A stretch of DNA of 11,704 nt from the NCBI GenBank assembly GCA_913041025.1, contig CAJWGQ010000084.1, positions 1 through 11,704 of the forward strand. The letters run 5' to 3'. Below, piece after piece: positions 3-1,902 of this stretch (its first letter is position 1; the number at the start of each line of letters is the position of its first letter). Source of the DNA: an uncultured Gammaproteobacteria bacterium (GTDB taxonomy: Bacteria > Pseudomonadota > Gammaproteobacteria > Pseudomonadales > Azotimanducaceae_A). The translations under genes and the position numbers were made by a program. The notes under the pieces were generated by a model, which had not been told where the DNA came from, ran no database searches, and saw only the letters and a list, made by a program, of their open reading frames with translations.

Positions 3-1829
3 GATTCACTAACATTTGCCTTTTTGGATATTAACCCGCTTTCAACAGGTCATTGCTTAGTTATTCCAAAAAAGAAATATACTAAAATTGATGAAGTTCC
101 GCCTGCTACCGCCAAAGCGCTTGGTGAAACAGTTGCAAAAGTAGCAAATGCAGTAAAAATAGCTACCGGATGTAGCGATTATAATGTGTTGCAAAACAAC
201 GGAAAAGCAGCCCATCAAGAAGTTCCCCACGTACACTTCCATATCATACCCAAAAATGAAAACGAAGGATTAGGAGTAAATTGGAAGTCGGATAAAATAA
301 GCAACGCGGAAGAGACGCAAAAGAAAATAATTGATGCGTTGAATTCGTTAAAAGATAAAAATCGACTTTCTAGGGATGTTGTTCCAAGAAATTACCAAGT
401 ATCGTTAAAGCCAGATTTTACAACTTTCAAATTTGATGGTGTTGTGGTGATCGAAGTGGACGTACTTGTTGAAACAAGCGAAATAAAAATGCATGCACAT
501 GAAATCGAAAATATTGTAGGAACGTATTGGAGATGTGGAAAACAAGCAGATGGGAAACAAAATTTATCAGTCGAATATCTAGTAGAAGATAAAAGCATAA
601 AATTAAAAGCTGCCAAGACGTTGTCAAAAGGCGCTTATTCCATTGAATTGAAATTCCAAGGTACTTTGAATGATAAAATGGCGGGTTTCTATCGTTCGAC
701 GTACAAGACTAAAGATGGTAAGGACAAAGTTATGGGAACAACGCAATTTGAAGCTGTTGATGCGCGACGTGCCTTTCCATGTTGGGACGAACCGTCATTT
801 AAAGCTACTTTTGATATGTCGCTGATCATTTCGAACGAGAACTTGACTGCATTGTCAAACATGCCTGTACGAAATAAGACCACGTTGGGAGATGGTTCAA
901 TTTTATATGAATATTGGCGAAGCCCAGTCATGAGCACATATTTATTGGCATTTATTGTTGGCGAGTTAGAAAGTATTTCTGCGAAAAGTGCAGGTGGCAC
1001 TGACTTTTCTGTTTACACCACTCCTGGAAAATTATCACAGGCTGCATTTGCATTAGATACTGGTGTAAAGGTTTTAAACTTTTTTGAAGAATATTTTGGA
1101 GTTCGCTATCCATTGCCGAAACAAGATATGGTTGGAATTCCAGATTTTGCAGCTGGAGCACTGGAAAATTGGGGACTTATTACGTATCGTGAAACTGCAT
1201 TATTTGCAACTGATGATTCTTCAGCTTCTGACAAACAACGTGTTGCATATGTCATTGCTCACGAACTTGCGCACCAATGGTTTGGAAATTTAGTTACAAT
1301 GGAATGGTGGAGTGATTTATGGCTGAACGAAGGATTTGCTACGTGGGCTGGTTGGTTAGCAATTGACAATATTTTTCCCCATTGGGATGTGTGGACAAAT
1401 TTTACAAATGATGATGCTGGATATGCGATGAAAACAGATGCGTTAGCAAGTAGCCACGCTATCCAAGTTACAATCGGAGACCCAAGTGAAATTGATCAAG
1501 TGTTTGATGCGTTGAGTTATAATAAAGGGGCATCTATGATTAGAATGATTGAATCACATGTTGGCTCCGATGTATTCCGCTTGGGACTAAGAAATTATAT
1601 TGAGCGCCACCAATATTCAAATACGCTTACTGCTGACTTATGGACTGCAATTTCTGAATGTGCTGGGTTCAATGTTGCCCAAATCATGGATAGTTGGTGT
1701 CTCAAAGTTGGATTCCCAGTAGTAAAAGTTGAGAGTAGAGATGGCAATGTTTTGAAATTGTCTCAGTCTCGATTTTTCTCAGGTGGCGAAGAAAGCAAAG
1801 AAGATCATCTTTGGTCAATACGGCGGTAG
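3..1829 (+). CDS. HIT domain fused to M1 aminopeptidase, eukaryotic type, both ends incomplete
   Basis: Residues are numbered from the TTG at 24, which is not a real start: the frame is open from base 3 and the upstream residues (DSLTFAF) fit the HIT N-terminus, so the gene enters from outside the window. Residues 1-90 are a histidine-triad nucleotide-binding domain with the catalytic HVHFHII motif at 69-75. Residues 114-600 are an M1 zinc aminopeptidase. It has the substrate-binding GALEN motif at 378-382, zinc ligands and catalytic Glu in HELAH at 413-417, the third ligand E436 after 18 residues, and the catalytic Tyr in YNKGA at 499. The closest style is the fungal/animal puromycin-sensitive aminopeptidase family, which trims N-terminal residues from peptides in the cytosol. 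Family members are about 850-900 residues, so most of the C-terminal helical domain is missing. The last residues before the stop at 1827-1829 are read from groES DNA in the wrong frame. The composition is more A+T rich than the neighbours. Family identity is certain; origin from a eukaryote is inferred. Confidence 0.85.
   Translation, partial: DSLTFAFLDINPLSTGHCLVIPKKKYTKIDEVPPATAKALGETVAKVANAVKIATGCSDYNVLQNNGKAAHQEVPHVHFHIIPKNENEGLGVNWKSDKISNAEETQKKIIDALNSLKDKNRLSRDVVPRNYQVSLKPDFTTFKFDGVVVIEVDVLVETSEIKMHAHEIENIVGTYWRCGKQADGKQNLSVEYLVEDKSIKLKAAKTLSKGAYSIELKFQGTLNDKMAGFYRSTYKTKDGKDKVMGTTQFEAVDARRAFPCWDEPSFKATFDMSLIISNENLTALSNMPVRNKTTLGDGSILYEYWRSPVMSTYLLAFIVGELESISAKSAGGTDFSVYTTPGKLSQAAFALDTGVKVLNFFEEYFGVRYPLPKQDMVGIPDFAAGALENWGLITYRETALFATDDSSASDKQRVAYVIAHELAHQWFGNLVTMEWWSDLWLNEGFATWAGWLAIDNIFPHWDVWTNFTNDDAGYAMKTDALASSHAIQVTIGDPSEIDQVFDALSYNKGASMIRMIESHVGSDVFRLGLRNYIERHQYSNTLTADLWTAISECAGFNVAQIMDSWCLKVGFPVVKVESRDGNVLKLSQSRFFSGGEESKEDHLWSIRR
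1798..1822. other. Chimeric junction between eukaryotic-type and bacterial DNA
   Basis: Up to about 1820 the aminopeptidase frame still gives M1-like residues (KEDHLWSI). From about 1801 a different frame gives GroES-like residues (KIIFGQYGG). The two homologies therefore overlap by roughly 20 bases that read sensibly in both frames. Upstream of 1801 the GroES frame loses similarity: the Gly-Asp expected just before the Lys of this GroES segment is replaced by Ala-Lys. Downstream of 1820 the M1 frame stops within three codons. A short exact word shared by two genomes at the switch is the usual signature of a de Bruijn graph misjoin. A biological recombination cannot be excluded from the sequence alone. 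Confidence 0.75.
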
Positions 1830-1902
1830 TACAGTGAAAATTGACGGCGAAGAAGTATTGATCTTAAGCGAAAGCGAGATTTTTGGAGTGTTGGAAGGCT
1901 AG
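1801..1902 (+). CDS. groES: GroES co-chaperonin, C-terminal 33 residues only
   Basis: The frame from 1801 to the TAG at 1900-1902 encodes the C-terminal third of the 10 kDa chaperonin. It shows the FGQYGG turn followed by VKIDGEEVLILSESEIFGV, close to the E. coli ending KIDNEEVLIMSESDILAIV. GroES caps the GroEL ring and closes the folding chamber in the cytoplasm. About 63 N-terminal residues, including the mobile loop that contacts GroEL, are absent because the DNA upstream switches to an unrelated aminopeptidase gene. There is no start codon or ribosome binding site for the fragment here. Its stop lies 43 bases before groEL, the normal groESL layout. The organism very probably has an intact copy and the loss reflects the join at about 1800-1820. 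Confidence 0.9.
   Translation, partial: KIIFGQYGGSTVKIDGEEVLILSESEIFGVLEG

Follow-up and report, generated by a model that had tools for sequence, protein, structure and literature searches.

Probable chimeric contig joining part of a eukaryotic-type HIT-M1 aminopeptidase gene to a gammaproteobacterial groES within a 21-base word

The window, meaning the whole 11,704-nt stretch of DNA that was analysed, carries at its left end part of a gene encoding a HIT domain followed by an M1 aminopeptidase (HIT-M1) and, from position 1801 onward, a bacterial segment that begins inside groES. The following features were assigned, with the evidence used for each in parentheses.

3..1820, + strand: part of a eukaryotic-type HIT-M1 gene (Pfam; alignment with database proteins P0001-P0008 and P0010; comparison with P0001)
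1801..1821, + strand: putative shared word at the switch, 21 bases (codon compatibility of P0001 and the L001 GroES)
1801..1902, + strand: last third of groES, 33 codons plus stop (Pfam Cpn10; NCBIfam; alignment with L001)
1946..3595, + strand: groEL, complete (NCBIfam TIGR02348, above cut-off)
3596..11704, no strand assigned: rest of the bacterial contig (Pfam and NCBIfam; collinear with L001 and G001:C32 to 11702)

The left open frame (3..1829) was matched by the Pfam families HIT (residues 2-86), Peptidase_M1_N and Peptidase_M1, the HIT domain being followed by the N-terminal and catalytic M1 domains. At the window edge the gene starts partway through the HIT domain, and the cut at the junction removes its C-terminal part. 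The closest database protein, P0001 (816 aa, 75% of the query covered), is a fragment without the HIT part. When compared with residues 153-606 of the M1 frame, it differs at 4 of 454 residues, none of them past residue 387. Following the common ...ESKEDHLWSI, whose last codon occupies 1818-1820, P0001 continues as PLHGCNEKGE..., whereas the window reads RR and a stop. P0001 extends 361 residues past the junction and includes the C-terminal domain PF11838. P0002-P0004, P0007, P0008 and P0010 also run past the cut; P0005 and P0006 end before it. At residue 387 (1161-1163) the window reads GALEN where the nine aligned relatives have GAMEN, the M1 exopeptidase motif; the difference could reflect either variation or an error.

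We also considered, and rejected, a further join at about base 360, where the HIT and M1 parts meet. The same order of HIT and M1 in one frame is found in five other database proteins (P0002-P0006), and the start of P0007 resembles the tail of a HIT domain. The HIT-M1 fusion is what stays of biological interest in this record, and the joining of a nucleotide hydrolase/transferase-type domain to an aminopeptidase may have a functional meaning. Within the literature excerpts retrieved, apparently no paper on such a fusion was found.

On the right side, the groES fragment covers positions 63-92 of the 93 in the Pfam Cpn10 profile, and its match to the NCBIfam co-chaperone GroES model, being that of a fragment, does not reach the curated cut-off. 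Measured against the 96-residue protein of the related locus L001, the first 63 codons are absent and the Lys at the junction is residue 64 of 96. The intact GroEL encoded downstream differs at one residue from P0122, a protein of a Candidatus Azotimanducaceae metagenome-assembled genome (MAG). Other contigs encode the same GroEL, the entry P0121 being listed with 11. Another relative, P0126, is 99% identical and has Tara among its sources, from which a marine origin is likely. Beyond groEL lie seven further bacterial genes and an eighth that runs off the window end: a urate-oxidase-N-like gene (partial similarity), a protein without Pfam family, a T2SSB-like protein, a GspA-like ATPase, a YihG-type acyltransferase, a PF10023 putative aminopeptidase, a DASS symporter and, at the end, an Exonuc_X-T_C exonuclease. 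The short protein encoded at 3768-4418 has partial similarity to PF06181 (urate oxidase N-terminal) and follows groEL in both the window and L001. Many genomes whose titles name SAR86 or gammaproteobacteria contain relatives of it, as do two titled Acidimicrobiia and Actinomycetes.

L001 (PBUF01000045.1, from a gammaproteobacterial MAG) was found by scanning bacterial and archaeal genomes with the 3768-4418 protein, to which its counterpart is 97% identical. In a blastn comparison it aligned from exactly 1801 to 9415 at 83%, the fetched locus ending there. The same genome matched window positions 9300-11702 at 88%, in register and without a change of contig (G001:C32), which makes the bacterial part collinear with a related MAG from 1801 to 11702. 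Among the four bacterial loci compared by blastn, L003 was also aligned from 1801 (69%), L002 gave matches only in stretches lying more downstream, and L004 gave none. The groES of L001 is whole (start at 2845) and is preceded by bacterial open frames, not by an M1 gene. In the genome of L001, the best M1 match (30%) and the best HIT match (40%) lie on different contigs.

The original prediction, that a eukaryotic aminopeptidase gene runs into bacterial groES and that both are broken at the switch, is borne out by the Pfam matches, P0001 and L001, since P0001 and the L001 groES each extend through the junction. The expected difference in taxonomy was also found, with eukaryotic-type relatives on the left and a gammaproteobacterial MAG on the right. 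The predicted change in base composition exists but is weak evidence. The GC content of the HIT-M1 part is 0.387, against 0.394-0.486 in the nine downstream genes, and its GC3 is 0.297, against 0.362-0.506; both shifts are modest. Codon-usage likelihood (+0.042 for HIT-M1, -0.055 to +0.016 for the nine other genes) did not separate the two sides and was dropped as evidence for two genomes. The case therefore rests on homology and not on composition.

For the family-wide survey, 61 genomes were sampled from the larger family group, including that of L001. A whole groES, defined by a best match of at least 93 of 95 residues without internal stop, was present in 57; the GroES search gave no match in the other four sampled genomes, which may be incomplete drafts. 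The HIT-M1 query had some match in all 61, with identities of at most 36% for the M1 part and at most 44% for the HIT part. In none of these 61 genomes were HIT and M1 joined in one match, the two parts matching at separate places, and none held a close HIT-M1 relative.

The origin of the left side was examined in an IQ-TREE phylogeny of 44 rows, consisting of the window and 43 proteins that we chose from the 120 M1 proteins listed; the root is arbitrary. The window and seven database proteins (P0001-P0007) formed a HIT-M1 clade of 8 rows (support 100/100). This clade lies inside a 19-row part (100/100) that also contains Klebsormidium, Closterium, transcripts from other eukaryotes and two rows without a name. 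Outside that part are the named bacterial rows and also other eukaryotes, including animals and Gloeochaete. By this tree, in which P0005 and P0006 fill less than half of the columns and some rows fail the composition test, the left side groups with M1 proteins of eukaryotes, not with those of bacteria. In addition, P0004 contains an insert of 48 residues (702-749), rich in F, S and L, with VS at its start and KQ at its end. At the protein level it reads like an unspliced GT...AG intron, which suggests a nuclear gene. The HIT-M1 part of the window itself is a single open frame. Tree and intron-like insert together uphold the earlier label of the left side as eukaryotic: its source is probably a eukaryote, perhaps an alga and perhaps one related to green algae.

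To delimit the switch point, the codon choices open to the M1 protein (P0001) and to the GroES protein (L001) were compared at each base. Agreement of the window with M1 lasts until 1821 and agreement with GroES begins at 1801, all 21 positions of 1801-1821 being compatible with both. At position 1800 M1 needs G and GroES needs C or T; at position 1822 M1 needs C and GroES needs G. The parents must differ at both positions, so the shared word is at most 21 bases long. Conservation is high on both flanks: the junction Lys or Arg has Gly-Asp before it in all 120 GroES proteins listed, and in the M1 proteins the residue after the junction is Pro in 114 of the 120 listed (3 gaps, 3 other residues). 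At the silent sites within the word L001 differs at one, with TTC for TTT; that the two parents are identical across all 21 bases is inferred. The first reading of the DNA had placed the end of good M1 similarity at about 1820 and the beginning of GroES at about 1801, in different frames and with an overlap of about 20 bases. These limits agree with the last common M1 codon (1818-1820) and with the alignments of L001 and L003 from 1801; the frames do differ (3 mod 3 = 0 for M1, 1801 mod 3 = 1 for groES), and the overlap is sharpened to 1801-1821, or 21 bases.

The same join was not found in an independent genome among the 61 sampled family genomes or in viral contigs. A 52-base junction pattern had no match in viral contigs. 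The 21-base word itself was absent from 187 fetched loci, 80 of them from viral contigs and none from the strain of the window. An M1 search of viral contigs gave two stretches that fitted a pattern, neither of which was confirmed. In a GroEL search of viral contigs, the 80 loci kept from 592 relatives were 63-75% identical and played no further part. A plasmid similarity search with 1500-2100 gave eight records and was uninformative; the five matches listed begin only at query base 427 or 453, four of them in annotated groEL and one in an unannotated record. Finally, that the closest GroES proteins were not on long contigs was set aside as evidence, because the database lists cluster representatives.

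On these sequence comparisons, we regard it as close to certain that the window is an artefact of some kind, its cause being graded apart. For that cause we favour, with a probability of roughly 0.8, a chimeric contig in which an assembler linked a piece of a eukaryotic HIT-M1 gene to a gammaproteobacterial contig at a 21-mer shared by chance. An identical 21-mer would have been present in both genes at 1801-1821, and the path of a de Bruijn-graph assembler would have crossed at it from the HIT-M1 gene into the bacterial contig. With an equal-base formula, chance alone would give about 14, 41 and 136 exact shared 21-mers for a 3-Mb genome paired with one of 10, 30 and 100 Mb, respectively, so that a single shared 21-mer is unremarkable. 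In SPAdes and MEGAHIT, both common multi-k assemblers, 21 is the lowest k used by default. According to the available text of PMC7299287, shared k-mers, mainly from related species or sequencing errors, link graphs and can lead to chimeric contigs. Multi-k assemblers begin at small k (available text of PMC7299287 and PMC5242441), and k = 21 was set for the single-k assemblers of a benchmark (available text of PMC5242441). The available portion of PMC9795473 gave no k values. Several points count against this account. A join at a 21-mer would usually be expected to disappear at the later, longer k steps and through read pairs. The word differs in L001 at one silent site and was absent from the 187 fetched loci, none of them from this strain. 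Codon usage fails to set the two sides apart, and the text of PMC7299287 deals with related species, not with a eukaryote and a bacterium. The misassembly of k-mer type that had originally been proposed is supported in that both genes are cut and incompatible codons bound the shared word at 21.

The switch would have been made by the assembler and not in the wet lab, where the same product could have arisen as a physical chimera, through template switching at the shared word during whole-genome amplification (MDA) or PCR, and then have been assembled faithfully. This is unlikely, though the length of the overlap is compatible with it: the accessible part of a study of MDA chimeras (PMC1855051) reports more than 70% of junctions primed at 2-21 matching nucleotides, a range in which 21 falls but of which it is the extreme. 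The same part of that study speaks against such an origin in two further respects, since inversions made up more than 85% of the MDA rearrangements and, where the joined segments lay more than 10 kb apart, matching bases were present in only 34.8% and 27.6%. No sign that the sample had been amplified was seen.

A real event, in which a eukaryotic HIT-M1 fragment was inserted into, or recombined with, bacterial groES upstream of an intact groEL, draws on the continuity of the sequence in the record. It would require one 21-base word, shared by chance, to be the place where both genes were cut, and it would break groES, normally an essential co-chaperone gene and whole in 57 of the 61 sampled family genomes. 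Neither a close HIT-M1 relative in these 61 genomes nor a match to the 52-base pattern in viral contigs was there to indicate transfer, and the Pfam and NCBIfam scans of the open reading frames (10 proteins each) gave no transposase or integrase family. Natural transfer is accordingly very unlikely. It is scarcely credible that the bacterial side is instead an insert in a eukaryotic genome, with one nucleus as the source of both sides. All that speaks for such an insert is that the two sides sit in one record, and on the bacterial side nearly 10 kb of densely packed bacterial genes run collinear with the draft genome of a bacterium.

Almost certainly, then, no organism need carry the HIT-M1/groES join. 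The record would best be split at 1801-1821. Contigs of this kind can give rise to false claims of gene transfer, to false loss of groES and to eukaryotic genes in bacterial bins. As a worked example of chimerism across domains the window is a clean one: codon constraints bound its switch to 21 bases, without recourse to reads.

Three known systems come closest to what is seen in the window. Among M1 proteins, the window gene resembles the puromycin-sensitive-type aminopeptidases of streptophyte algae, with identities over the M1 region of 54% (Klebsormidium) and 49% (Closterium); these share a supported part of the tree with it, and the N-terminal HIT domain is an addition in the window gene relative to them. 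The join shares with MDA template-switch chimeras (Lasken and Stockwell 2007, PMC1855051, as far as the accessible part of that text goes) its position at what would be a short matching stretch; it differs from them in lying between two organisms, in the lack of an inversion and in an overlap at the top of the range. As in the interspecies chimeric contigs of multi-k de Bruijn assemblies, two genomes would be connected across a short exact word, and both genes are cut but extend past the join in relatives. Unlike in those contigs, the parents are unrelated rather than sister species, and the overlap is deduced from codon constraints.
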